A stretch of 57,833 bases of DNA from the NCBI GenBank assembly GCA_020830965.2, contig JACCFC020000020.1:1-57833 (forward strand), read 5' to 3'. Origin of the DNA: Neisseriaceae bacterium TC5R-5. GTDB lineage: Bacteria > Pseudomonadota > Gammaproteobacteria > Burkholderiales > Chromobacteriaceae. This document shows, piece after piece, positions 32,636 through 44,588 of this stretch. The first letter of the stretch is position 1. Each line of letters opens with the position of its first letter. A program made the translations under genes and the position numbers. A model generated the notes under the pieces. The model made no database searches. It saw only the letters and a program-made list of their open reading frames with translations, and was not told the DNA's origin.

Positions 32636-33796
32636 ATGAGCCAACAAAAATTCCTCCCCTTTGCGCTGCCGGATATTGGCGACGAAGAGATCAACGAAGT
32701 CGTCGACACCCTGCGCTCGGGCTGGGTGACCACCGGCCCCAAGGCCAAACAGTTTGAAGCCGATTTTGCCGCCTTTATCGGCGACGGCGTCGAAGCCATT
32801 GCCGTCAACTCCGCCACCGCCGGCCTGCACCTAGCGCTGGAAGCCATCGGCATCGGCCCCGGCGATGAAGTCATCGTCCCCAGCTACACGTTTACCGCCA
32901 CCGCCGAAGTGGTGCGCTACTTGGGCGCACATCCGGTCTGTGTTGATGTCGAAGCCGATACCCTCAATATCAGCCCGGCGGCCATTCGTGCCGCCATCAC
33001 CCCGCAAACTCGTGCCATCATGCCGGTACACTTTGCCGGGCTGGCCTGCAAAATGGACGAAATTGGCGCGATTGCACGCGAACACGGTCTGAAAGTAGTC
33101 GAAGACGCCGCCCATGCGCTACCGACCACTTATCAGGGCAAGATGATAGGTACTTATAGCGATATCACCGTATTCAGCTTTTACGCCAACAAAACCATGA
33201 CTACCGGCGAAGGCGGTATGGTGGTGTCAAAAAACCCGGACCTGATCGCACGCTGCAAGGTGATGCGTCTGCACGGTATCAGCCGTGATGCCTTTGACCG
33301 CTATACCTCGAATACCCCGGCCTGGTTCTATGAGGTGATCGCCCCCGGCTACAAATACAATATGCCGGACATCGCCGCCGCTATCGGCCTACAGCAACTG
33401 AAAAAAATCCGCCGCTTTCACCAGCAACGCGAAGTAATGGCGCAGCGTTTTGATCATGAGTTGGCCGATCTGCCGCTGACCTTGCCTGCACGCCCACAAC
33501 TGGCCAGCGACACCCATGCCTGGCACCTGTATCCGGTACGTCTGCACGCCGATGCCGGCATCAACCGCGATGACTTTATCGCGCAAATGGCAACACGCGG
33601 CATAGGCTGCTCGGTACACTTTATCCCGCTGCACCGCCAGCCTATCTGGCGCGATAGTTATCAGTTGCGCAGAGAGCAATTTCCTATCACTGACGCCGCT
33701 TTTGAGGCCGAAGTCTCCCTACCTCTCTATACCCGCATGAGCGCCGATGATCAAAGCCGCGTGATTGCTGCTGCGCGCGCGATTCTGACGACATGA
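32636..33796 (+). CDS. DegT/DnrJ/EryC1/StrS family sugar aminotransferase (PglE/WecE-like)
   Basis: A 386-residue PLP enzyme that aminates a keto-sugar nucleotide. The PLP-binding Lys 186 is in [14 protein letters not shown], and [14 protein letters not shown] (77-90) and [12 protein letters not shown] (155-166) are family motifs. Together with the downstream 4,6-dehydratase it could convert UDP-GlcNAc to a UDP-4-amino-trideoxy sugar, as in bacillosamine synthesis. It overlaps the sugar transferase by ATGA. It opens a three-gene operon. Confidence 0.88.
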
Positions 33797-34449
33797 AGCC
33801 GCTGCCGCAAAGCCCGCTACCCGCCTGCTGCCAGCCGCCGCAGCGTGGCTCGGCCGGCGTGAAGCGGGCTTTCGACCTGCTGGCCGCTAGCTGCGGCCTG
33901 CTGCTGTTGGCACCGCTACTGCTGGCGCTGGCATTGTGGATCAAACTGGACTCACCCGGCCCAGTTTTTTTCCGGCAACAACGAGTGGGGCGTTACGGCC
34001 AGCTATTCCGCATCCACAAATTCCGCAGCATGCATCTTGATGCCGAGCAGCAAGGGCAATTAACCGTCGGCCCGGACCGGCGCATTACCCGTGCCGGCCG
34101 CCTGCTACGTAAAAGCAAGCTGGACGAACTACCGCAACTGATTGATGTATTACGCGGCAAGATGAGCTTGGTGGGGCCGCGCCCGGAAGTACCGAAATAC
34201 GTCGCCCATTATCCTGCCGAGGTACGCGAACAAATCTTGGCGCTACGCCCCGGCATTACCGATTGGGCGTCGATCCGGATGATAGACGAGAACGATATTC
34301 TGGGTGCCACCAGCGACCCGGAACGCGCCTATATCGAACAGATTCTGCCAACCAAACTTGGCTACTATGTACGCTACGCACAAACGCACAGCCTGCTGGG
34401 AGATATACACATCATCCTGGCAACCTTATGGAAAATTATCAGGCGCTAA
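33793..34449 (+). CDS. Initiating sugar phosphotransferase (monotopic PGT, PglC-like)
   Basis: A 218-residue member of the bacterial sugar transferase family, which moves a phospho-sugar from its UDP carrier to undecaprenyl phosphate. It has one N-terminal membrane helix (about 27-50), the FRIHKFRSM motif, the catalytic Asp 111-Glu 112 pair in [10 protein letters not shown], and LVGPRPE (127-133). The small size without extra N-terminal helices resembles PglC rather than WcaJ/WbaP. It lies between the aminotransferase and dehydratase genes, pointing to a glycan or glycoprotein built on an amino-deoxy sugar. Confidence 0.9.
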
Positions 34450-34494
34450 GCTGATTCACTCAAATCGCCAACACACCGTACACCAACCAAGCCC

Positions 34495-36378
34495 ATGCTA
34501 GAAAAACTGCTCTCCTTTTCCCGCCATCACAAAATGGCTCTACTCGCGCTGATGGATGCGCTCTTGCTACCGCTGGCGCTGTGGAGCGCAGTGGTGCTGC
34601 GCCTAGGCGGGCAATGGGACCCCAAGCTGACTCCCTATTTATGGATATTCCTGATGCCACCGCTATGGGCCATCCCCATCTTCATCAAGCTGGGGCTGTA
34701 CCGTGCCGTGCTGAAGTATCTGGACGATAAAATCATCTACACTGTTTTTGTCGGCGTCACCCTGGCGGTACTGGTATTGCAGGCCGTGATACAGATGGCC
34801 GCTATCTGGGCCATGCCGCGCGCCGCCATCATCATCTTCTGGGTGTTTGCCATGGCCTATATCGGCGGCAGCCGCTTTTTGCTGCGCGGCCTGGTCAGGC
34901 GCATTGACGCAGTGGATGCTCCGCGTGAGCACGTAATTATCTATGGTGCCGGTTATGCTGGCGTGCAATTACTACTGGCACTGCAAGCCGGGCCGGAATA
35001 CCGGCCCATGGCCTTCGTCGATGACAACCCCCGGCTATGGCGCAAGACCTTCCGTGGCGTGGCGGTGCATAATCCTGCCGAATTAAGCCAATTGGTCAAT
35101 AGCACCCAGGCCAAATGTATTCTGCTGGCCATGCCCTCAGCCAGTCTTGGTCGGCAGCGCGAAATACTGCAAGCACTGGAAGCCTTACGTATCCCGATCA
35201 AGCGCCTGCCCGGCATGGCCGATCTGGTTTCTGGTGGCGTCACAGTAGAAGAACTAAAAGAAGTCGATATCGAAGACCTGCTGGGTCGCGACGCGGTACC
35301 ACCACAGGCCGAGCTATTAACCCGCAATATCCGCGATAAAGTGGTGATGGTAACCGGTGCCGGTGGCTCAATAGGCAGCGAACTGGTACGACAGATTGCC
35401 CACCACCAACCTACTCGTCTCGTACTGTTTGAACAATCAGAATATGCCTTGTACAGCATTGAGCAGGAACTACGGCAACACCATCCGCATCTGACCCTCA
35501 CCCCTCTACTGGGCTCGGTTACCGACTACCAGCGCCTGTGTCAGGTGATGCGCGCCTTCAACGTGGCCACCGTCTACCACGCAGCTGCCTATAAACATGT
35601 GCCCATGGTGGAGCACAATCCGATAGCCGGCATCGTCAACAATGTCTTTGGTACCGATACTACCGCCCGTGCGGCCGAAAGCTGCGCAGTAGATACTTTT
35701 GTGCTGATCTCCACCGACAAAGCAGTACGCCCCACCAATGTGATGGGAGCCAGCAAACGACTGGCGGAACTCACCCTGCAGGCCCGCCACGCTCGCGGCA
35801 GCAAAACCCGTTTCGTGATGGTGCGCTTTGGCAATGTGCTCGGTAGCTCCGGCTCGGTCGTGCCCTTATTTCGCAATCAGATCAAGGCTGGAGGCCCAAT
35901 CACCCTCACCCACGCCGACATCACCCGCTACTTCATGACCATCCCCGAAGCCGCTCAGCTCGTTATTCAGGCTGGCGCCATGGGAGATGGTGGCGATGTC
36001 TTTGTACTGGATATGGGCGAACCGGTACGCATTATCGACCTGGCACGGCGCATGGTGCACCTGTCCGGCCTGGAAGTGAAAGATGCCGCACACCCGCACG
36101 GCGATATCGAAATCGTCATTACCGGCCTGCGCCCTGGCGAAAAGCTGTATGAAGAATTACTGATCGGAGACAACGTCCAAGCCACCGCCCACCCACGCAT
36201 CAGACGTGCGCAGGAATACCGCCTAGCGACCGCCGAAATCAACTTCATCTTGGATAGGCTGGAAAATAGCTGTCAGCAACAGGATGCCATTGGGGCTTTT
36301 GAATGCCTGAAAGAAGCGGTGCATGAATTTAAAGCAGCAGCCAAAACGCAGGATTGGGTACAGCAGAGTAGTTACTAG
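34495..36378 (+). CDS. Membrane-bound nucleoside-diphosphate-sugar 4,6-dehydratase (PglF/WbpM/CapD-like)
   Basis: A 627-residue protein with four N-terminal membrane helices (up to about residue 130), a CoA-binding-like Rossmann segment GAGYAGVQLL (151-160), and a catalytic short-chain dehydrogenase domain with VTGAGGSIGSELV (286-298). The active site has Thr 407, Asp 408, Lys 409 and Met 417, with Lys 421. Met in place of the usual SDR Tyr is the hallmark of PglF/WbpM 4,6-dehydratases acting on UDP-GlcNAc. It closes the operon. A bidirectional terminator follows at about 36474. Confidence 0.9.
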   Translation: MLEKLLSFSRHHKMALLALMDALLLPLALWSAVVLRLGGQWDPKLTPYLWIFLMPPLWAIPIFIKLGLYRAVLKYLDDKIIYTVFVGVTLAVLVLQAVIQMAAIWAMPRAAIIIFWVFAMAYIGGSRFLLRGLVRRIDAVDAPREHVIIYGAGYAGVQLLLALQAGPEYRPMAFVDDNPRLWRKTFRGVAVHNPAELSQLVNSTQAKCILLAMPSASLGRQREILQALEALRIPIKRLPGMADLVSGGVTVEELKEVDIEDLLGRDAVPPQAELLTRNIRDKVVMVTGAGGSIGSELVRQIAHHQPTRLVLFEQSEYALYSIEQELRQHHPHLTLTPLLGSVTDYQRLCQVMRAFNVATVYHAAAYKHVPMVEHNPIAGIVNNVFGTDTTARAAESCAVDTFVLISTDKAVRPTNVMGASKRLAELTLQARHARGSKTRFVMVRFGNVLGSSGSVVPLFRNQIKAGGPITLTHADITRYFMTIPEAAQLVIQAGAMGDGGDVFVLDMGEPVRIIDLARRMVHLSGLEVKDAAHPHGDIEIVITGLRPGEKLYEELLIGDNVQATAHPRIRRAQEYRLATAEINFILDRLENSCQQQDAIGAFECLKEAVHEFKAAAKTQDWVQQSSY

Positions 36379-36473
36379 CCCACTTTATCTCACCCACAAC
36401 GCTCGCAACACACAAAGTGCTGCCAAGAGCTTTATTTCTAAATTCTCTCGTTTTTAATTGAATAGCAATCGTA

Positions 36474-36511
36474 AAAAGCCGCAAAATAAATTTAATCATT
36501 TTGCGGTTTTT
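36474..36511. terminator. Bidirectional Rho-independent terminator
   Basis: A 9-base-pair stem (36479-36487 with 36498-36506) with a 10-base loop has an A-run on its left and a T-run on its right. On the plus strand it can end the sugar operon, which stops at 36378. On the minus strand it ends the small-peptide operon 43 bases after the last precursor stop. Confidence 0.85.
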
Positions 36512-36553
36512 ACTTCGAAGAGCAAACCTATTAAATCATTATTACGTATCAAT

Positions 36554-36687
36554 TTAGTGAAGTACCATTTCAGCAATCGCCTCGACTACTGCACCGATTA
36601 CCCTACAAACCCCACATCCGCCAGCAACATCTTCAAAGTCATCAAAACCTAGTTCAACCATTTCACTACATCTTGATTTTTTTGCAT
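36554..36687 (-). pseudogene. Double-glycine-leader peptide precursor 4, frameshifted
   Basis: A good start lies at 36687 (GAGGG seven bases upstream, ATGCAA) but the frame closes after 12 codons. One base out of phase, from an internal ATG at 36661 to the stop at 36554, the sequence reads MVELGFDDFEDVAGG followed by a 20-residue core with two Cys (CGVCR at its start). Base-by-base comparison with precursor 3 (37222-37386) aligns ATGCAA, then CAAGA, then ATGGTTGAA, and shows one missing base just before the internal ATG, in an A-run (GTGAAATGG). Restoring it gives a 24-residue leader ending in VAGG. It may be a decayed gene, a phase-variable gene, a sequencing error, or use the internal ATG, which has no ribosome binding site. 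Confidence 0.6.
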
Positions 36688-36755
36688 ATCAATACCCTCA
36701 TTGTTAAGTTTGCATGCCAGCCACTTGTACTGCTGGCAACCTACGCCATGATAAA

Positions 36756-36935
36756 CTATAGAAACTGACGAATTGGTGGATTAATACCAATTAAAATCGG
36801 AAGCGGCCGCCAAGGAATAGGCCGCTGAACTATACAACCTCCTTCAATGACTCCTCCACTGATACTTTCTACTTCTTCTAAAGTTAATATTGAAAGCGCT
36901 TGATCAGAATTTGACAACAAAACTTCAGTTTCCAT
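36756..36935 (-). CDS. Double-glycine-leader peptide precursor 1, Pro/Ile-rich core
   Basis: A 59-residue precursor. The leader (residues 1-28) ends in LTLEEVESISGG, matching the consensus of hydrophobic and acidic positions before Gly-Gly that C39 peptidases recognise. The 31-residue core is VIEGGC followed by a stretch with five Pro and two Arg (RPIPWRPLP), ending in Ile/Pro-rich sequence. A second GG in VIEGGC could be an alternative cleavage site. The ATG at 36935 is chosen because AAGGAGA precedes it; the longer frame adds ten unsupported residues. The core lacks GxxxG motifs, unlike its neighbours. Confidence 0.75.
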   Translation of the reverse strand: METEVLLSNSDQALSILTLEEVESISGGVIEGGCIVQRPIPWRPLPILIGINPPIRQFL

Positions 36936-36952
36936 GAAAGTCTCCTTATTTA

Positions 36953-36986
36953 CTGACTCACCCACGTGTTATCGTGGATAAGTCAG
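36953..36986 (-). other. Intergenic hairpin between peptide precursors 2 and 1
   Basis: Two helical blocks (36953-36958 with 36981-36986, and 36962-36966 with 36973-36977) flank a 3x3 internal loop and enclose a 6-base apical loop. It lies in the 63-base gap between two precursor genes and ends just before the AAGGAGA site of precursor 1. It has no T-run, so it could be an RNA-processing or stability element. Confidence 0.4.
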
Positions 36987-36998
36987 CAATTAAAAACC

Positions 36999-37184
36999 TT
37001 ACCGGTTAGCCAAGTCTCTACCAAAGGTATAGCCAGCATCCCAAGCAGCAATCGCAAGTGCGACTCCCGCTCCTATTGCTGCTCCTATCCAACCACCTCC
37101 AACATTGTCAATCTCCTCAATGCTTAAATCACAAACTTCTTGAGCATCGAGTTTAGAAGAAAAATGAGTATTGAGTTCGTGCAT
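36999..37184 (-). CDS. Double-glycine-leader peptide precursor 2, class IIb/microcin-like
   Basis: A 61-residue precursor. The 30-residue leader ends in LSIEEIDNVGG. The 31-residue core starts GWIGAAIGAGVALAIAAW and ends GRDLANR. Several GxxxG/AxxxG-type spacings and alternation of small and hydrophobic residues are what two-peptide (class IIb) bacteriocins and some class II microcins show. AAGGA lies upstream of the ATG. It sits 37 bases after precursor 3 in the same direction. A membrane-active antibacterial peptide is the best inference; a signalling peptide is the alternative. Confidence 0.8.
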   Translation of the reverse strand: MHELNTHFSSKLDAQEVCDLSIEEIDNVGGGWIGAAIGAGVALAIAAWDAGYTFGRDLANR

Positions 37185-37221
37185 AGCAATAATCCTTTAC
37201 CAATTTAGTTGAGTACATTTG

Positions 37222-37386
37222 TTAACGAGGTCTATTAGCCAGATAGCCCGCCACAGCCCCTGCGATAAACAAGAGAGGTATTAAGCCACCTCCACCAACC
37301 TCTTCAACTTCATCAATGTTTAATTCGATCATTTCATTTCCATGATCAGCTTCAACCATCAACGCAAACTCTTGAATATTTTGCAT
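37222..37386 (-). CDS. Double-glycine-leader peptide precursor 3 (54 residues)
   Basis: This short frame was read directly from the sequence. The 32-residue leader starts MQNIQEFALMVEADHG and ends LNIDEVEEVGG; the 22-residue core is GGLIPLLFIAGAVAGYLA followed by NRPR. GAGGG lies eight bases before the ATG. The core is very hydrophobic with a basic end, and its GYLANRPR end resembles the GRDLANR end of precursor 2. The upstream context and leader resemble precursor 4, suggesting duplication. It is the first gene of the four-precursor minus-strand operon, facing the exporter genes. Confidence 0.75.
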   Translation of the reverse strand: MQNIQEFALMVEADHGNEMIELNIDEVEEVGGGGLIPLLFIAGAVAGYLANRPR

Positions 37387-37490
37387 GTTAATACCCTCAC
37401 TGTATAGAAATTAAAGTCCTGTCAAAAACACCTTTTCATCTTAGATATTATTGACGCTTGCACTGAATTAAATACTCAAACTATAATCGG

Positions 37491-37510
37491 TTGAATATTT
37501 TTTTATTCAA
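37491..37510. promoter_or_regulatory. Palindrome in the divergent promoter region of the peptide system
   Basis: TTGAATA (37491-37497) and TATTCAA (37504-37510) form a perfect inverted repeat around six T. It lies in the middle of the 193-base AT-rich gap between precursor 3 and the HlyD gene, so it could be an operator controlling both directions. On the minus strand TTGAAT (37505-37510) and TATAGT (37480-37485) could serve as -35 and -10 boxes with a long 19-base spacer. No convincing promoter was found for the plus strand. Confidence 0.4.
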
Positions 37511-37579
37511 ATTGCGTAACTATCATCGCATGATTAAATTTAAAGTCAATTAATTTTAGAAGATCTTAAACTGGCCAAA

Positions 37580-38851
37580 ATGACAGAAAGAACTCCTCTT
37601 TTTCGTAAACAGGCGTTGGAGCAGTTTACCAATCGTCGTTACGGAAAAATATTATTAGCACACCCATTAAGTTTCTCCATATTAACCATTTTGTTTTTAA
37701 TAATTGCTATAGCTATTGTTGTATTCTTTTTCACCTTCGCCTACACCCGCAAAGTCGCAGTACCTGGGGTGCTATTACCAACCCAAGGCTTGATTAGGGT
37801 GGCGTCAACCCAAAGTGGAGTGGTGACAGAAAGCAGGGTATATGAAGGGCAACAAGTAGCAGCCGGAGAGGTATTGTTTGTGCTAAGCAATCAGCGCACC
37901 AGTGCCACTAAAGGTGACGCGGAGCAGGTGATTTCAACCTTATTACAGGGCCGGCGGGACAGCCTGACGACTGAGCAGCAAATACTACGACTACAGACAC
38001 AACAACGCATGGGGGTATTACAACGCAAGGCCACTGATCTGGCGGCCGAAGTACGGAGAGTAGATGAACAGCTGCTGATGCAACAGAGGCGGACGGCTTT
38101 GGCCGAGCAAGCGGTACAGCGTTATCAAAAACTGGAACAAGCCGGCTTCATTTCTCCTGCTGGCGCGCAGGACAAGCAGGCCGAGCTATTGGATCAACAG
38201 GGCCGCTTAAGCGAGCTACAACGTACACGAGCAGCAGCCTTACGGGAACAGGATGCTGCTCAAGCGGATTTGAATGACCTAGCATTGCAAGCCAAGCGTG
38301 AACAAGCTGCCGTGCAGCGAGAGGAAGCGACGTTAGAGCAGGACTTGACAGAAAACGAAGCACGACGCGAGTTGCTGGTACGCGCACCCCAAGCCGGAAT
38401 TGTCAGCGCAATTATTGCCGAACCAGGGCAAACGGTGATGGCCAGCCAGGTATTGGCCAGTTTGTCCCCCTTAGGTTCGCCATTGGAGGCCGAGCTGTAT
38501 GCTCCATCGCGCGCAGCGGGTTTTGTCAAACCGGGGATGACGGTGTTACTACGTTATCAGGCCTACCCCTATCAAAAGTTTGGTCAGTTTCAGGGATATG
38601 TGCGTGAGGTATCCAGCAGTGCATTACGCGCTGGCGAGTTGAATTTGTCAGAGAACGGTTTGCTGGCCAGCGGAGGCAGCGAACCACTATACCGGGTGCG
38701 AGTGCGTTTAGATAAACAGCAGATCACCACTTATGGCAAAGCACAAGCCTTAAAAACCGGGATGGTGCTGGAAGCCAGTGTGTTGCTGGAGCAACGCAAG
38801 CTATACGAATGGGTGTTGGAACCCTTATATAGCATTAGTGGGAAAATGTAA
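37580..38851 (+). CDS. HlyD-family periplasmic adaptor of a bacteriocin exporter (CvaA-like)
   Basis: A 423-residue membrane fusion protein with a short cytosolic N-terminus, one transmembrane helix (about 33-54), a biotinyl-lipoyl-like half motif (GVVTESRVYEGQQVAAGEVLF), a long Gln/Ala/Glu-rich coiled-coil hairpin (about 115-270), and a C-terminal beta-barrel region. It should link the inner-membrane ABC exporter to an outer-membrane TolC-like channel. Its stop overlaps the exporter start by one base (TAATG), so the two are coupled. The ribosome binding site is weak. Confidence 0.9.
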   Translation: MTERTPLFRKQALEQFTNRRYGKILLAHPLSFSILTILFLIIAIAIVVFFFTFAYTRKVAVPGVLLPTQGLIRVASTQSGVVTESRVYEGQQVAAGEVLFVLSNQRTSATKGDAEQVISTLLQGRRDSLTTEQQILRLQTQQRMGVLQRKATDLAAEVRRVDEQLLMQQRRTALAEQAVQRYQKLEQAGFISPAGAQDKQAELLDQQGRLSELQRTRAAALREQDAAQADLNDLALQAKREQAAVQREEATLEQDLTENEARRELLVRAPQAGIVSAIIAEPGQTVMASQVLASLSPLGSPLEAELYAPSRAAGFVKPGMTVLLRYQAYPYQKFGQFQGYVREVSSSALRAGELNLSENGLLASGGSEPLYRVRVRLDKQQITTYGKAQALKTGMVLEASVLLEQRKLYEWVLEPLYSISGKM

Positions 38852-41013
38852 TGGCACAGACACCTTTTTTGCAGTTTTGGGGCCGCCGCCGCTTGCCCTT
38901 GTTGTTGCAGACCGAGGCCGCAGAGTGCGGGCTGGCTTGCCTGGCGATGATAGCCAGTTACTGGGGGCATCATATTGACCTAGCCGGTATGCGGCGACGT
39001 TTTTCGGTCTCCCTTAAGGGGTCTACTTTAAAAAGCCTAATCGGTATGGCCCAGAGTTTGGGCTTGCAACCACGTCCACTTAAACTAGATCTGCCACATC
39101 TAATGCAGCTTAAGCTGCCTTGCCTGCTGCATTGGGATATGAATCATTTCGTAGTACTCAAGCGGCTTAATCGCAAACAGATCGTCATTCATGATCCAGC
39201 CGTAGGCGAGCGCAAACTGTCGTGGGAGGAGACGTCTACACATTTCACTGGAGTAGCGCTGGAGTTAACACCGGGTGGCACGTTTCAAAAAGCTAGCGAG
39301 GTACAGCGTTTTAGCCTGCTGTCTTTAATGGGACGGGTAGATGGTCTAGGCTATGGTTTAAGTCAATTATTGCTATTAGGTGTGGCTTTACAGGTGTGCT
39401 TGCTGGTAGCGCCTTTCTATATGCAGTGGGTAGTGGATGAGGCACTGGTAGCAGCTGACCGTGATTTAATTACCGTGCTGGGCATCGGTTTTTTATTATT
39501 GGTACTGATACAGACGGCTATTGGTGCAGTGCGTTCCTGGATTACCACGGTGCTGGCCACCAATTTAAATTTTCAGTGGCTGAGCAATGTATTTATTCAT
39601 TTATTGCGCTTGCCACTACCCTGGTTTGAAAAGCGCCATCTAGGCGATATTGTGTCGCGATTTGGTTCAATTCAAACCATACAAAAGGCGTTGACCACCC
39701 AGTTTGTCGAAGGACTACTGGATGGAGTGCTCGTGCTGATCACGCTGGTGGTGATGCTACTGTACAGCCCTAGCCTGGCTGCTATCAGTGCAGGGGCCGT
39801 ATTGCTATACGGTATTTTGCGCTGGTCTTTGTTCAGAGTATTGCGTGAAGCCAACGCTGAGCAAATTATCCATGCCGCCAAGCAGCAGAGTCATTTCCTA
39901 GAATCAGCACGCGGGGTACAGAGTGTACGCTTATTCGGCCGCGAAGAAGAACGGCGCATGAGCTGGATGAATATGTTGGCAGATCAATTTAATGCGGATT
40001 TACGCATCGCCCGGATGAATATTTCATTTCAGACCGCTAATACACTGTTATTTGGCGCAGAGCGCGTGATAGTCGTATGGATGGCCGCCATCGCGGTACT
40101 GGATACGCGCTTTTCGGTAGGTATGTTGTTTGCGTTTCTCAGTTATAAAGATCAGTTCAGCGAGCGCATGGCTGCTTTGATCGATAAGGTATTTGAGTTT
40201 CGCATGTTGCGACTACATGGGGAGCGAGTAGCAGATATTGTACTAACCGAAGCTGAGCAGGATGGCCTGGATGTGGAGGTCGATATTAGCAGAGTAAGCG
40301 CTAGCATTGAGTTGCGCGGCGTGTCGTTTCGCTATGCCGATAGTGAACCTTATGTATTGAAGGATTTGGATTTGAGTATCCCAGCAGGGCAATGTCTGGC
40401 CATTATCGGCGGATCCGGCTGTGGTAAAAGCACACTGTTGAAGTTGCTACTAGGCCTGCATCAGCCGAGTGAGGGTGAGATATTAATCGGAGGTGTCAAA
40501 CTACAGAGCCTGGGTTTGTCGAACTACCGACAACTACTGGGCACAGTAATGCAGGATGATCTACTGTTTGCGGGTTCGATTGCGGATAACATCTGCTTTT
40601 TTGACCCGCAACCCGAGCAGGAAAAAATTGTATATTGCGCCCAGCAGGCGGCGATTCATGAGGAGATCATCACGATGCCGATGACCTATAACACGCTGGT
40701 AGGCGATATTGGGAGCGGCTTATCCGGTGGGCAGAAACAAAGAATTTTACTAGCCCGTGCATTGTACCGGCAACCAAAAATCTTGGCCTTGGATGAGGCT
40801 ACCAGTCATCTCGATGTACAAAACGAGCAGCTAGTAAATCAAGCAATCAGACAAATACCACTGACCCGCATCATTGTTGCTCACCGACCAGAAACCATTG
40901 CCATGGCAGAACGAGTAGTGCTACTGGAGCAGGGTCAGATTATACAAAGCTGGGAGCAAGCTGCCGTGTCACAAAAGAATAGTAAAGCGGCAACGCAAGA
41001 TCCAGTCGTTTAA
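38851..41013 (+). CDS. Peptidase C39-containing ABC transporter (bacteriocin maturation and export, CvaB-like)
   Basis: A 720-residue protein. The N-terminal C39 peptidase has Gln 20, catalytic Cys 26 (AECGLACL), His 99 (NHFVVL) and Asp 115 (HDPA), so it should be active in cutting after Gly-Gly. A six-helix ABC membrane domain follows (about 160-440). The nucleotide-binding domain has Walker A GGSGCGKST, the Q-loop in MQDDLLFAGSI, the signature LSGGQKQR, Walker B ILALDEATSHLD and the switch His in VAHRPET. It should cleave the leaders of the peptides encoded divergently at 36554-37386 while exporting their cores. Confidence 0.94.
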   Translation: MAQTPFLQFWGRRRLPLLLQTEAAECGLACLAMIASYWGHHIDLAGMRRRFSVSLKGSTLKSLIGMAQSLGLQPRPLKLDLPHLMQLKLPCLLHWDMNHFVVLKRLNRKQIVIHDPAVGERKLSWEETSTHFTGVALELTPGGTFQKASEVQRFSLLSLMGRVDGLGYGLSQLLLLGVALQVCLLVAPFYMQWVVDEALVAADRDLITVLGIGFLLLVLIQTAIGAVRSWITTVLATNLNFQWLSNVFIHLLRLPLPWFEKRHLGDIVSRFGSIQTIQKALTTQFVEGLLDGVLVLITLVVMLLYSPSLAAISAGAVLLYGILRWSLFRVLREANAEQIIHAAKQQSHFLESARGVQSVRLFGREEERRMSWMNMLADQFNADLRIARMNISFQTANTLLFGAERVIVVWMAAIAVLDTRFSVGMLFAFLSYKDQFSERMAALIDKVFEFRMLRLHGERVADIVLTEAEQDGLDVEVDISRVSASIELRGVSFRYADSEPYVLKDLDLSIPAGQCLAIIGGSGCGKSTLLKLLLGLHQPSEGEILIGGVKLQSLGLSNYRQLLGTVMQDDLLFAGSIADNICFFDPQPEQEKIVYCAQQAAIHEEIITMPMTYNTLVGDIGSGLSGGQKQRILLARALYRQPKILALDEATSHLDVQNEQLVNQAIRQIPLTRIIVAHRPETIAMAERVVLLEQGQIIQSWEQAAVSQKNSKAATQDPVV

Positions 41014-41030
41014 CGCGGCCACTTCTTGCA

Positions 41031-41621
41031 TCACTTCTGCGCCGGTGCCTCATTAATATACTCAACCAGAGACACTACTTTTTGCACGCCGGCAGTTTCA
41101 CTGACAATTTGCGCTGCGGCTGCTGCTTCCGCTTGTGTCAGCAGACCCAGCACATACACCACACCACGCTCGGTCACTACTTTGACATCATTCGGATTAA
41201 AGCCCTGACCATTAAGCAAACGCGCACGCACTTTACTGGTGATCCAGGTATCGTTGCTACGCTCAGACAAGCTGCTGGCGGCGGTGGTTTCGGTGTAATT
41301 AAACACCCGACGCACATTAGGCGTACCACGTGCAGTCAGCTCCGCCTGTTGCCGCGCCTGCAGCGTTGGAACTTCACCGGTCAATAACACTGCGCGATTA
41401 AAGCTGGTCACGTTGACATGGGCGGAGGGAAATAACTTACTAATCTGGCCACTGGCCTTCACCTCAATAGCCTGATCGTCTACATATGCACCACTGGTGC
41501 GCCGATCCGATGCCACCATTACTCCACCGGCAGCCCCAGCCGCAACAACGCCAAAACAGGCACTCAAGCTACTGCACAAACTGGCAGCCAGCAGCCACAC
41601 CGCCAAAGAACGGCTTTTCAT
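41031..41621 (-). CDS. dolP: BON-domain outer-membrane lipoprotein DolP (YraP)
   Basis: A 196-residue lipoprotein with signal peptide and lipobox LSAC (Cys 22), then two BON domains (about 65-130 and 140-190), each with the phospholipid-binding fold signature such as NRAVLLTGEVPTLQARQQ and GVVYVLGLLTQAEAAAAAQ. DolP binds anionic lipids and supports outer-membrane integrity and BAM function. The ATG at 41621 has GGAGGGG just upstream; the longer frame adds residues inside gmhA. It overlaps neither neighbour's core and is convergent with the ABC exporter. Confidence 0.92.
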   Translation of the reverse strand: MKSRSLAVWLLAASLCSSLSACFGVVAAGAAGGVMVASDRRTSGAYVDDQAIEVKASGQISKLFPSAHVNVTSFNRAVLLTGEVPTLQARQQAELTARGTPNVRRVFNYTETTAASSLSERSNDTWITSKVRARLLNGQGFNPNDVKVVTERGVVYVLGLLTQAEAAAAAQIVSETAGVQKVVSLVEYINEAPAQK

Positions 41622-41622
41622 C

Positions 41623-42216
41623 TCAATCCCCTCCCAACAACATGTAATCCACAGCATCACTCAGGGCATGCAGCAATAGAATATGCACCTCCTGAATACG
41701 GCAGGTACGCATTGATGGCACGATCAAATGCACATCGTCGGATGACAAAATCTCGGCCAACTTGCCGCCATCTTTACCGCTAAGGGCAATCACCCCCATC
41801 CCGCGCTCATGAGCGGCATACACCGCCTCCACCACATTGGCCGAGTTACCGGACGTCGAAATCGCCAGCAATAAATCATTGGTGTGACCCAAAGCACGTA
41901 CTTGCTTGGAAAACACCATATCAAAATCGTAGTCGTTGCCAATCGCGGTCAGAATGGAGCTATCGGTCGCCAAAGAAATCGCAGCCAAACCCGGCCTCTC
42001 CTTCTCAAAACGCCCCACCATTTCGGCAGCAAAATGCTGGGCATCAGCAGCAGAGCCACCATTACCACAAGCCAGAATTTTGCCCTCATTCATCAGGCAG
42101 GCCACCATGCGCTCCGCCGCTACCGCTACACCAGCGGATAACAGCTCCATCGCCTCCTGCTGCGTGGCCATATTCTCCAGAAAATGCCCATTCACCCGGT
42201 CAATCAAATCCATCAA
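41623..42216 (-). CDS. gmhA: SIS-domain protein, phosphoheptose isomerase GmhA / DnaA-associating DiaA type
   Basis: A 197-residue sugar isomerase domain protein. SIS motifs are CGNGGSAADAQHFAAEMVGRF (about 50-70) and AISTSGNSANVVEAV (about 118-132). The fold is shared by GmhA, which makes D-glycero-manno-heptose 7-phosphate for LPS, and DiaA, which stimulates DnaA loading at oriC. The yraN-this gene-dolP order is that of diaA in E. coli, but betaproteobacterial proteins here are usually annotated as phosphoheptose isomerase, so both roles remain open. Confidence 0.85.
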   Translation of the reverse strand: MMDLIDRVNGHFLENMATQQEAMELLSAGVAVAAERMVACLMNEGKILACGNGGSAADAQHFAAEMVGRFEKERPGLAAISLATDSSILTAIGNDYDFDMVFSKQVRALGHTNDLLLAISTSGNSANVVEAVYAAHERGMGVIALSGKDGGKLAEILSSDDVHLIVPSMRTCRIQEVHILLLHALSDAVDYMLLGGD

Positions 42217-42231
42217 CCATCCTCAATACAC

Positions 42232-42567
42232 TTAGATGAAAATATTTTTCAGCCACTCGGGCGGCGCGTCGGCCACCGTCAACACAGCATCAAAACGACA
42301 AGGCACATTCAAGCCTTTAATAGACAAATACATTGCCGCCGCCTGCTCCAGCTTGCGGCGTTTAGCCGGGGTAATACTTTGAGCCGCGCTACCAAAACGC
42401 TCAGAAGCACGGTGCCGCACCTCAACAAACACCCAGTGAGCCTGATCGCGCATCACCAAATCCAACTCACCGGCACGGCACGACCAATTACGTTCCACCA
42501 GCGTTAATCCCCGTGCCTGCAAAAAAGCCAGCGCCCTATCCTCAGCCTGCTGGCCCAGCTTATTCAC
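42232..42567 (-). CDS. yraN: YraN family protein (UPF0102)
   Basis: A 111-residue protein of the UPF0102 family, predicted to have an endonuclease-like fold. The segment GELDLVMRD followed by WVFVEVRHR (about residues 32-52) provides the D-ExK/R-like arrangement typical of that fold. Its biological role is not established. The start overlaps the stop of the upstream LpoA-like gene by ATGA. Confidence 0.93.
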
Positions 42568-43682
42568 TGCAGCTCTCCGGCTCCCAGCACCTTAACCGGC
42601 AACTCCCGCTCAAAAACGCGCCCCTCACCCAGCTTCAAGTCACCGCTCACTCCGTCTAGGCGCAAGGAAGACACCTTGCCCTTGCCTGCCAACAGCACCG
42701 CTAGGCGCCAGGCATCAATTCCCAAGGCATACAGTCGCTCAGTTTGCATCGTCAAGGCCGCCGCCGGCTTGGGATAATGCTTTACCGCATCATGCTCCGG
42801 CATCAAAAACCAGGGCATATCAATAATGCGCACCCCGGCAAGCTCAGGCCCGACATGATGACTGTTTAACTGCGATGTGCCATACACTGGCAACTCCGGA
42901 TTCAATCCCTGCTTCAACTTCCCAGCCTCCTGGGCATTCACCGCCATAAACACCGCATCGGCACTCTCGGCCGCAATTAATACCGCATCCTCCCGACCTG
43001 ATGTCACCTCCAGGCTTACTGGCCGTTTATTCGGGTAGCGCCGCTGCCACTCATCCAGAAAAGCCTGCTCTAGACGCCGCGACAAAGCATCCTCCCCTAC
43101 CAGCAATAATGGTCGGGTGCGACCATCCTGCGCCATCAGTTTGGCAATCTGCTGTGCTTCACCCTCCACTACCAGTGATAGCGAATAGAGTTTGGCGTTA
43201 CCCAATACCTCTCGATTGACCGAATTCAAAGCCAGCGTTGGCACCGACACATAAGGCGCTACCGATGCAATCGCGCTACGTGACAACGGCCCAATCACCA
43301 CATCGGCACCCGCTGCCACTGCCTCGCGATAACGGCTCACCACCGTATCCTCAGATTCGCTCACCACCACCAACTCCGCATTAGCATCGGTAGCCGCAGC
43401 AGTTTCTACCCCACGCTGTACCACCGCAGCGGCCTCCTTCAAACTAGGCGAATCATTCGGCAACAACACCGCGATGCGAATTTTGGCATCATTACGGCTA
43501 GCTGCCGGCGCGGCAGTACGCGCTGCTAACGGAACAGCAGACGATTTAACCGGCTGCTCTGCCTGCGCGCCCAAAGACTTCATCGGCGCAGCGTTATTTT
43601 GGATGATATAGTCCGGTGTCTGCGCCATCGCTGGCGTTACCCAAATCAACACAACCATCCACAACGGAATCAATCTGTGCAT
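42564..43682 (-). CDS. Penicillin-binding protein activator, LpoA/YraM C-terminal type
   Basis: A 372-residue periplasmic protein with a signal peptide ending TPAMA before Gln 22, followed by a linker and a periplasmic-binding-protein-like domain ([19 protein letters not shown] onward). It corresponds to the C-terminal domain of LpoA, which activates PBP1A; the N-terminal TPR domain of the 678-residue E. coli protein is absent, as in other betaproteobacteria. No lipobox Cys follows the signal sequence, so it may not be lipidated. The ATG at 43682 overlaps the start region of the divergent rsmI. Confidence 0.85.
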
Positions 43683-44588
43683 GCTTCGTTCGCCCATTTG
43701 CTGGAATCAGCTAAAGAAAGTTTTAGTAGCGGCACATTATATGTGGTCGCCACACCCATTGGAAACCTAAATGACATCAGCGCCCGCGCGCTGGCCTCGT
43801 TTAATCAAGCCGACATCGTTTGCGCCGAAGACACCCGCGTAACCGGCCAAATGCTCTCCGCCTACCACATCCACGCCAAACGCTTGGTCAGCCTACGCGA
43901 ACACAATGAACGCCATATGGCCGAACAAGTGATTCGCTGGCTGGCAGAAGGCAAAATGGTGGTGCAAGTTTCCGATGCCGGCACCCCGGCCATCTCTGAC
44001 CCCGGCGCCCGGCTGGTAGAGGCCGTGCGCGCCGCCGGCCACCCAGTTTGCCCACTCCCCGGCGCCAGTGCCGTCATCACCGCACTCAGTGCCAGTGGTT
44101 TTACCGCCAACAGCTTTCTGTTTCACGGCTTTTTGCCAGCCAAATCCGGCGAGCGCCGCAAAACACTGCTGACTTGGCTGAACGCCCCCCACCTTACCGT
44201 GTGTTATGAAGCCCCACACCGTATTGTCGACACCTTAAGCGATATCGTCAGCGAACTCGGTCCCGAGCGTCGGGTGATGCTAGCACGCGAACTCACCAAA
44301 ACCTTTGAAACCTTCCGTAGCCTACCGGCCAACGAACTACTAGCCTGGGTCAGCGCCGACAGCAATCAGCAACGCGGCGAAATTGTCCTGATCATCGACG
44401 CTGCCCCGGCACGCGATGGCGACGACGATAGTCTGCCAGAACATACCCTGCGCATCCTTAAGCTACTGGCAGCAGAACTGCCCACCAAGCAAGCCGCCAG
44501 CCTCACCGCCAGCATTACCGGTGCCAACCGCAAACAGCTTTACGAACTGGCATTGCAACAAAAACAAGGCACTGGCAGCGCCGACTAA
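43677..44588 (+). CDS. rsmI: 16S rRNA (cytidine-1402-2'-O)-methyltransferase RsmI
   Basis: A roughly 300-residue SAM methyltransferase that methylates the ribose of C1402 in the 16S decoding site. The motif GTLYVVATPIGNLNDIS begins the fold, and SDAGTPAISDPGARLV, PLPGASAVITALSASG and FYEAPHR-like CYEAPHRIVDTL are all characteristic. No ATG precedes the core; GTG at 43677 (303 residues) or TTG at 43698 (296 residues) are the likely starts, neither with a clear ribosome binding site. Its 5' end overlaps that of the divergent LpoA-like gene. Confidence 0.93.
   Translation: MHASFAHLLESAKESFSSGTLYVVATPIGNLNDISARALASFNQADIVCAEDTRVTGQMLSAYHIHAKRLVSLREHNERHMAEQVIRWLAEGKMVVQVSDAGTPAISDPGARLVEAVRAAGHPVCPLPGASAVITALSASGFTANSFLFHGFLPAKSGERRKTLLTWLNAPHLTVCYEAPHRIVDTLSDIVSELGPERRVMLARELTKTFETFRSLPANELLAWVSADSNQQRGEIVLIIDAAPARDGDDDSLPEHTLRILKLLAAELPTKQAASLTASITGANRKQLYELALQQKQGTGSAD

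Follow-up and report, generated by a model that had tools for sequence, protein, structure and literature searches.

The window analyzed here is a 57,833-nucleotide stretch of DNA from Neisseriaceae bacterium TC5R-5 (GenBank assembly GCA_020830965.2, contig JACCFC020000020.1, labeled C62, of a 3.53 Mb genome). The host genus is taken as Chromobacterium (the genome grouped with C. subtsugae, C. sphagni, and C. vaccinii). The window contains a six-gene cassette, in which four small genes on the minus strand (P1-P4) encode precursors of double-glycine peptides, and an adaptor and a peptidase-containing ABC exporter are encoded on the plus strand. The chances are about even that this locus is a type I secretion unit for unmodified, membrane-active, bacteriocin-like double-glycine peptides. 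The machinery is well formed and of a known kind, and it is not a categorically new system. Judging from sequence comparisons, what stands out is the core of P2, for which no kin were found, and the change of cargo that the exporter appears to have undergone within the genus.

The four precursors are recognized by their leaders. A matrix of 14 columns was derived from 25 leaders found at other loci and run over both strands of the whole window, small bonuses being added where an ATG and a ribosome-binding site are present. At a score of at least 10 the matrix returned four matches, which are P1-P4, and none elsewhere. At a score of 12, 60 dinucleotide shuffles of the window gave a mean of 0.15 matches (maximum 2), while 500 shuffles of positions 36379-37579 gave one match in all (mean 0.002); the leader of P1 scores 12.3, the lowest of the four. 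The matrix is not blind to the window, as some of its training leaders were first noticed via their likeness to P2-P4 in a search that used P1-P4 as queries. All four leaders are of the M-x-E-L-x3-E-x-x-x-V-x-G-G kind and end in GG, P1 being the weakest. The original prediction of four small minus-strand genes with double-glycine leaders is borne out, and the reading of the locus as a double-glycine secretion system that exports more than one peptide is likewise supported. The register of V-x-G-G keeps the predicted core lengths of 20 residues for P1 and 31 for P2 and corrects those of P3 (30 rather than 31) and P4 (21 rather than 22), with an uncertainty of one residue in P3, which has GGG, and in P4, which has GGGG. 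None of the four precursors matched Pfam at E 1, and no NCBIfam model was matched above its cut-off.

The exporter has the domain composition of a peptidase-containing ABC transporter, with Pfam families PF03412, PF00664, and PF00005 all above cut-off in one chain. The side chains of Gln20, Cys26, His99, and Asp115 are present, as they are in 96 of 96 related exporters; Gln20 is presumably the oxyanion Gln. The prediction that an adaptor and a C39 exporter with an intact Cys26/His99/Asp115 triad face the peptides is confirmed for every residue named. Compared by sequence with proteins of solved structure, the exporter best matches the ABC-type bacteriocin transporters 4ry2 and 8vp3. In 98 of 99 loci an adaptor match stands ahead of the exporter, and the remaining locus is cut at a contig end. 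Only one C39 match was found in the genome, the exporter itself, and 16 TolC-type (OEP) stretches are located on seven other contigs, making export plausible throughout.

These components suggest the following sequence of events. First, the four precursors would be made from one minus-strand transcript ending at the hairpin at 36479. Next, the C39 domain of the exporter would bind each leader and cleave it directly behind the final glycine of V-x-G-G. The cores would then be carried out by the ABC part, together with the HlyD-type adaptor and a TolC-type channel encoded elsewhere. We infer this common transcript, cutting, and export with high confidence. Finally, P3, P4, and (if made) P1 would give rise to short, hydrophobic helices spaced like glycine zippers, whose most likely action is insertion into, and depolarization of, the membranes of nearby, probably related, bacteria, and P2 would release a separate Pro/Arg-rich peptide.

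The cores of P3 and P4 are hydrophobic with small-residue spacing, and their C-terminal ends are alike (..LANR in P3 and ..LANRPR in P4). The score between the P3 core and a core from locus L158 was reached by 1 of 50,000 shuffles, that between P3 and a Massilia core (L057) by 9 of 50,000, and that between P4 and a Duganella core (L059) by 7 of 50,000; as each pair is the best of 116 comparisons in a library of 117 cores, these figures need to be multiplied by about 116. Furthermore, L158 was found with P3 as the query. With the correction and the origin of L158 taken into account, the sequences make P3 likely kin to hydrophobic peptides of other Burkholderiales and are suggestive of the same for P4. 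Across 399 genomes of the order, the window's included, P3 has matches in seven other genomes, three of which (L157, L158, L162) hold leader-bearing relatives; the matches in L159, L160, L161, and L163 lie in long frames with no leader match and were rejected. P4 has one match besides its own, in a five-peptide genome (G057). Hydrophobic double-glycine peptides also face the adaptor in three Massilia loci (L057, L060, L063) and in L056, L061, and L065, occurring in pairs in L057 and L060 and singly in L063, L056, and others. L048 has an array of five ORFs, of which four are hydrophobic and share the strand of the adaptor.

A 34-nt stretch at the 5' end (85%) and a 19-nt stretch at the 3' end (84%) recur in P1 and P4, whose leaders also agree at 8 of 15 positions, indicating that the two genes are duplicates. 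Inspection by eye shows that the ATG at 36685-36687, with a ribosome-binding site common to P4, opens a 12-codon frame that stops at 36649, and that the P1 ORF begins in a different frame, at an internal ATG that has no good ribosome-binding site ahead of it. Given this good site and ATG in another frame, P1 either starts at the internal ATG or is decaying; in the former case it may be made by re-initiation from the 12-codon frame. In relatives such as L048, L056, and L061, the full leader usually has this P1-type form (15 residues, M-x-E-L..GG). In addition, the McbC precursor of the killing Moraxella catarrhalis strain O12E has 77 aa and, compared with the plasmid allele, is missing 24 residues at its N-terminus (PMC2761928). 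Since O12E kills without these residues, an N-terminal extension before the leader is dispensable, as in P1 compared with P4, and together with the usual 15-residue leader this makes it possible that P1 is made. No relatives of P1 besides its own match were found in the 399 genomes, and the lowest p for its core, 0.003 before correction for 116 comparisons, amounts to nothing. It had been claimed that the four cores differ strongly; this holds only in part, as P1 and P4 are duplicates and the ends of P3 and P4 are alike. Similarly, P2, P3, and P4 can reasonably be called a peptide cocktail, whereas P1 has the look of a copy of P4 that arose by duplication and may be decaying.

The core of P2 contains six Pro and three Arg in 31 residues and has a net charge of +2. 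No credible relative of P2 was found in the 398 other genomes of the order. Four weak matches (E 2.7e-4 to 6e-3) were rejected, as they lie inside long frames of 245-466 codons with no leader match at score 8, and the lowest p for the core (0.024 before correction for 116 comparisons) again amounts to nothing. Neither P2 nor P3 matched plasmid sequences at E 1. Assignment of P2 by sequence to the proline-rich antimicrobial peptides (PrAMPs) was tried and rejected: a search of the PDB at E 10 returned four matches, all ATG4B/APG4B, at E 1.1-1.2. The core bears a likeness to the RPIP/RPLP repeats of animal peptides. No bacterially encoded PrAMP was met in a literature search at the title and abstract level, which cannot prove absence.

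The relatives of the exporter carry different cargo. The loci surveyed are numbered with the prefix L; those outside the genus were the best 80 of at least 574, plus loci from other genomes of the order, and the counts describe this sample. The exporter is present at 73-79% identity in 11 of the 18 other genomes of the genus. A quick tree of 94 exporters, in which several long branches were flagged, places the window, the 11 congeners, and a Paucibacter locus (L053) in a 13-row group (support 99), with the window outside the other twelve (support 92). All 11 congener loci have double-glycine ORFs upstream of the adaptor and facing it, and P1-P4 matched none of the small ORFs of these loci at E 1. 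Each of the 11 carries other cargo: His-rich cores of the HVHVH type in seven (L035-L039, L041, L042), TTxxVGEE cores with an MvdD-type ATP-grasp protein in L032, and other types in L033, L034, and L040. In the wider survey, at least one double-glycine ORF lies within 3.5 kb of the exporter in 67 of 96 loci, at least two in 23, and at least four in 5. Their density, 114 in 602 kb within 3.5 kb versus 5 in 485 kb farther off, is a count that is partly circular (the 25 training leaders come from such loci) and not exhaustive. In the wider exporter group (36 relatives), the upstream ORFs that face the adaptor number 30 and those running in its direction 5, compared with 9 and 52 in the other 60 loci, indicating that the facing layout is a habit of the window's own exporter group. 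The original prediction had named as fatal to itself an exporter kept beside other cargo with no precursor homologues in relatives. Within the genus this is the situation found, and for P3 it extends to the family. It does not apply outside the family: P3- and P4-like peptides are present there and in some cases adjoin related exporters.

Several of these relatives offer observations in their own right. Short His-rich cores (HVHVH, HVD, HIH) are found in Paucibacter L053 and in L035-L039, L041 (2200-4844 and the upstream peptide), and L042. In L041 and L042, two proteins of ~430-450 aa lie beside the His-rich peptides, one of the L041 pair having a weak Cupin_8/JmjC match below cut-off. By their sequences, the His-rich double-glycine peptides are possibly an undescribed class of modified peptide. 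The genome of the window itself contains a second peptide-like cluster (L174:5160-10536, contig C1 at ~271.2-276.5 kb), in which a short ORF without a double glycine ends in ..LALARPIRHIRVIS and lies beside, among others, two proteins of 470 and 385 aa with 34% and 29% identity, respectively, to the L041 enzyme. L032 (1960-2970 and the ORFs upstream of the adaptor) combines TTxxVGEE double-glycine precursors, an MvdD pre-ATP-grasp protein, and the same exporter family; we take these precursors to be graspetide-like. Nine double-glycine precursors with a near-identical tiny core, PEVDVESGGG or similar, surround one exporter in Undibacterium pigrum (L067). A hydrophobic start followed by Pro-rich repeats (Cys-Pro in Zoogloea) is observed in L105, L113, L124, L128 (Zoogloea), and L044. 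Finally, the exporter of L084, titled Bacillus subtilis, is very close to that of Stenotrophomonas L080, and this contig is probably a contaminant.

The cassette lies between what we take, from names read off the sequences, to be polysaccharide genes on the left (32636-36378) and a BON-DiaA-YraN-LpoA block on the right (41031-43697). It had been described as an AT-rich region, suggesting acquisition. The composition holds for the peptide segment (36379-37579, 38.2% G+C, with 13 G/C in 37501-37560) but not for the adaptor (51%) or the exporter (49%), which have the composition of the window (50.6%). Acquisition is not shown, as the exporter groups with its own genus and has the window's base composition. 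In the 11 congeners, the 400 bp before the adaptor range from 33 to 63% G+C and the exporter loci from 57 to 68%. All 19 genomes of the genus have the BON block, and a match to the exporter, the adaptor, or the polysaccharide genes within 1.5 kb of it was found in none of the 18 other genomes. What differs from the congeners is the place of the exporter and its cargo. This evidence agrees better with a relocation of the adaptor-exporter pair inside the lineage, accompanied by new cargo, than with the cassette having been imported as a whole. An exact insertion junction is not given, because the ORFs on the side of BON away from DiaA differ among six congeners.

The proposal that the peptides are unmodified agrees with the cassette, where no modification enzyme was found among the ORFs (Pfam and ORF list; cassette only, so that a distant enzyme is possible). 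With no such enzyme seen in the cluster, the cassette does not qualify as a modified ribosomal peptide (RiPP) locus of the lanthipeptide, graspetide, or similar kind. Several observations speak against the proposal that they are antibacterial. No immunity gene was seen in the cassette (36379-41030, ORFs of at least 30 aa, by eye; a smaller or distant gene is possible), the remaining ORFs of at least 30 aa all overlapping the six genes (by eye). The cores are short and weakly charged (net charges of -1, +2, 0, and +2 for P1-P4), and P3 has no relative in the 60 other genomes of its family. In addition, the nearest studied betaproteobacterial analogues, the Nap peptides of Neisseria, showed no antibacterial activity (PMC11798529). 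Given that no immunity gene was seen and that Nap sets a precedent for self-lysis and EbfG one for biofilm, the odds that the peptides act on membranes as antibacterials, and not in self-lysis, biofilms, or signaling, are put at about even.

Self-directed lysis is an alternative that is possible although unlikely. The cores would hit the producer's own stationary-phase population and release DNA or nutrients, making strict self-protection needless, which suits a cassette with no immunity gene seen. In Neisseria, a related group, the Nap peptides did not inhibit other bacteria and promoted self-lysis. Their island holds three double-glycine peptides (cores of 36, 16, and 31 aa) at 38% versus 53% genome G+C, and the C39 peptidase gene that borders it has 52% (PMC11798529); here the peptide segment likewise has 38.2% versus 50.6% for the window, the adaptor and exporter lying at 49-51%. 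Against this, the Nap peptides are cationic (predicted pI 9-10) and the island has a putative immunity gene, napI (PMC11798529), while the window's cores are weakly charged and no counterparts of napF, napR, napH, or napI were recognized among the six cassette genes (by eye, with no Nap sequence compared).

A role in biofilms or communities, like that of EbfG1-4 of Synechococcus elongatus, which are exported with the C39 transporter PteB, is also unlikely. The EbfG system has the same number of peptides and a C39 transporter, and its mature peptides likewise contain no known domain and are not homologous to proteins from other cyanobacteria (PMC4997328). The cassette here also adjoins genes that look like polysaccharide genes (32636-36378). 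However, the EbfG cores are of 6-7 kDa (PMC4997328) as opposed to ~2-3.5 kDa here, the hydrophobic glycine-zipper character of the cores points rather to peptides active on membranes, and among the matches listed for the 11 congener loci none above 45% identity to these polysaccharide genes lies beside the exporter.

It is improbable that the cassette is decaying, that is, that the exporter served other cargo in the genus and was moved and that the present peptides are leftovers being lost. The ribosome-binding site of P1 in another frame and a cargo unlike that of all 11 congeners would fit such decay, but P2, P3, and P4 have intact leaders and ribosome-binding sites (by eye), the adaptor and exporter are full length, and the 15-aa leader of P1 is of the form usual in L048, L056, and L061. 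Very improbable is a reading of the adaptor-exporter pair as a loading dock whose cargo is swapped within the genus among unrelated peptide chemistries (His-rich with weakly cupin-like enzymes, graspetide-like with ATP-grasp, short Cys, and an unmodified hydrophobic array), with P2 possibly acting inside its target as animal proline-rich peptides do.

Features of the cassette (positions in the window)
Feature	Position	Strand	Description
Terminator-like hairpin	36479..36506	-	11 pairs then T run, just past P1; inverted repeat I2
P1	36554..36661	-	35-aa precursor; leader MVELGFDDFEDVAGG; predicted core CGVCRVIGAVVEAIAEMVLH (20 aa); internal ATG
12-codon reading frame	36649..36687	-	Behind ribosome-binding site common to P1/P4; overlaps P1 start in other frame
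P2	36756..36935 (from ATG)	-	59-aa precursor; leader METEVLLSNSDQALSILTLEEVESISGG; predicted core VIEGGCIVQRPIPWRPLPILIGINPPIRQFL (31 aa)
P3	36999..37184	-	61-aa precursor; leader end ..SIEEIDNVGGG; predicted core WIGAAIGAGVALAIAAWDAGYTFGRDLANR (30 aa), glycine-zipper type
P4	37222..37386	-	54-aa precursor; leader end ..MIELNIDEVEEVGGG; predicted core GLIPLLFIAGAVAGYLANRPR (21 aa), hydrophobic
AT-rich divergent region	37387..37579		Between P4 and adaptor
HlyD-type periplasmic adaptor	37580..38851	+	423 aa; exporter partner
Peptidase-containing ABC exporter	38851..41013	+	720 aa; C39 peptidase 16-141, membrane domain 174-438, ATPase 503-652

By its sequence, the hairpin is the probable end of the minus-strand transcript of the four peptide genes; terminator-like sites were found at two places in all versus 0.8 expected, the second one inside P4. 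The divergent region is presumed to hold promoters for both directions, and a promoter scan was at chance level (3 found versus 3.1 expected). An A7 run ahead of P1 was considered as a phase-variation site and rejected, because the window contains 18 runs of at least seven A or T, among which this one is not special.

Double-glycine peptides of Gram-negative bacteria outside the enterics are often predicted and seldom tested (PMC10233263). This locus is a clean test case, having one C39 exporter found in the genome and four defined cores of 20-31 residues; as these are short and no modification enzyme was seen, all could be synthesized. The first candidate for synthesis would be P2, which has no known relatives. 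The retention of the exporter with a change of cargo in the genus also bears on how one C39 domain reads differing precursors and how cargo is exchanged.

The literature search met no such loci in Chromobacterium, and double-glycine peptides are touched in passing in the available text of two reports (PMC3262810, PMC9200625). Comparison with the class IIb bacteriocins used the model TIGR03949 (lactobin A/cerein 7B). The leader of P2 fits the leader part of this model with 17.9 bits over model positions 2-18 only, P3 is weak (9.5 bits), and P1 and P4 do not match; as P2 and P3 are both under the curated cut-off of 21.5 bits, the peptides do not qualify for this class. The class II microcins have a double-glycine precursor, a C39 ABC exporter, a membrane-fusion adaptor, and a TolC-type channel, as here (PMC10233263). 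McbC of Moraxella catarrhalis (mcbABCI) is an example from a non-enteric Gram-negative with proven killing (PMC2761928). In contrast to the present cassette, where no immunity gene was seen next to a precursor and which in this respect departs from the class II microcins, the immunity gene of these systems lies beside or overlaps the precursor (PMC10233263, PMC2761928), and the microcins need the immunity protein (PMC10233263). Mature McbC, counted from the reported leader position, has ~60 residues (PMC2761928) compared with 20-31 for the window's cores.

The nap island resembles the cassette in its several short double-glycine peptides, AT-rich segment, and C39 protein of normal composition, and differs in its cationic cores, the extra napF, napR, napH, and napI, and the lack of a named HlyD-type adaptor in the available text (PMC11798529). 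EbfG1-4 and PteB differ in their larger cores, cyanobacterial host, and demonstrated biofilm role (PMC4997328). Bacteroidetocins are Gram-negative double-glycine peptides that are antibacterial with, in the excerpted text, no evident immunity protein, and unlike the peptides here they have at least two cysteines, a five-TM protein, and mostly a thiol oxidoreductase gene (PMC6671954). In the cyanobacterial double-glycine clusters, several groups have modification enzymes or SurA (PMC3140520), neither of which was seen in the cassette. Their leader consensus is M(R/K)ELX3E(I/L)X2(I/V)XG(G/A) and, like the locus described here, these clusters (groups I-VII) combine a C39 exporter and HlyD with diverse precursors, from 1 to 16 in number (PMC3140520).

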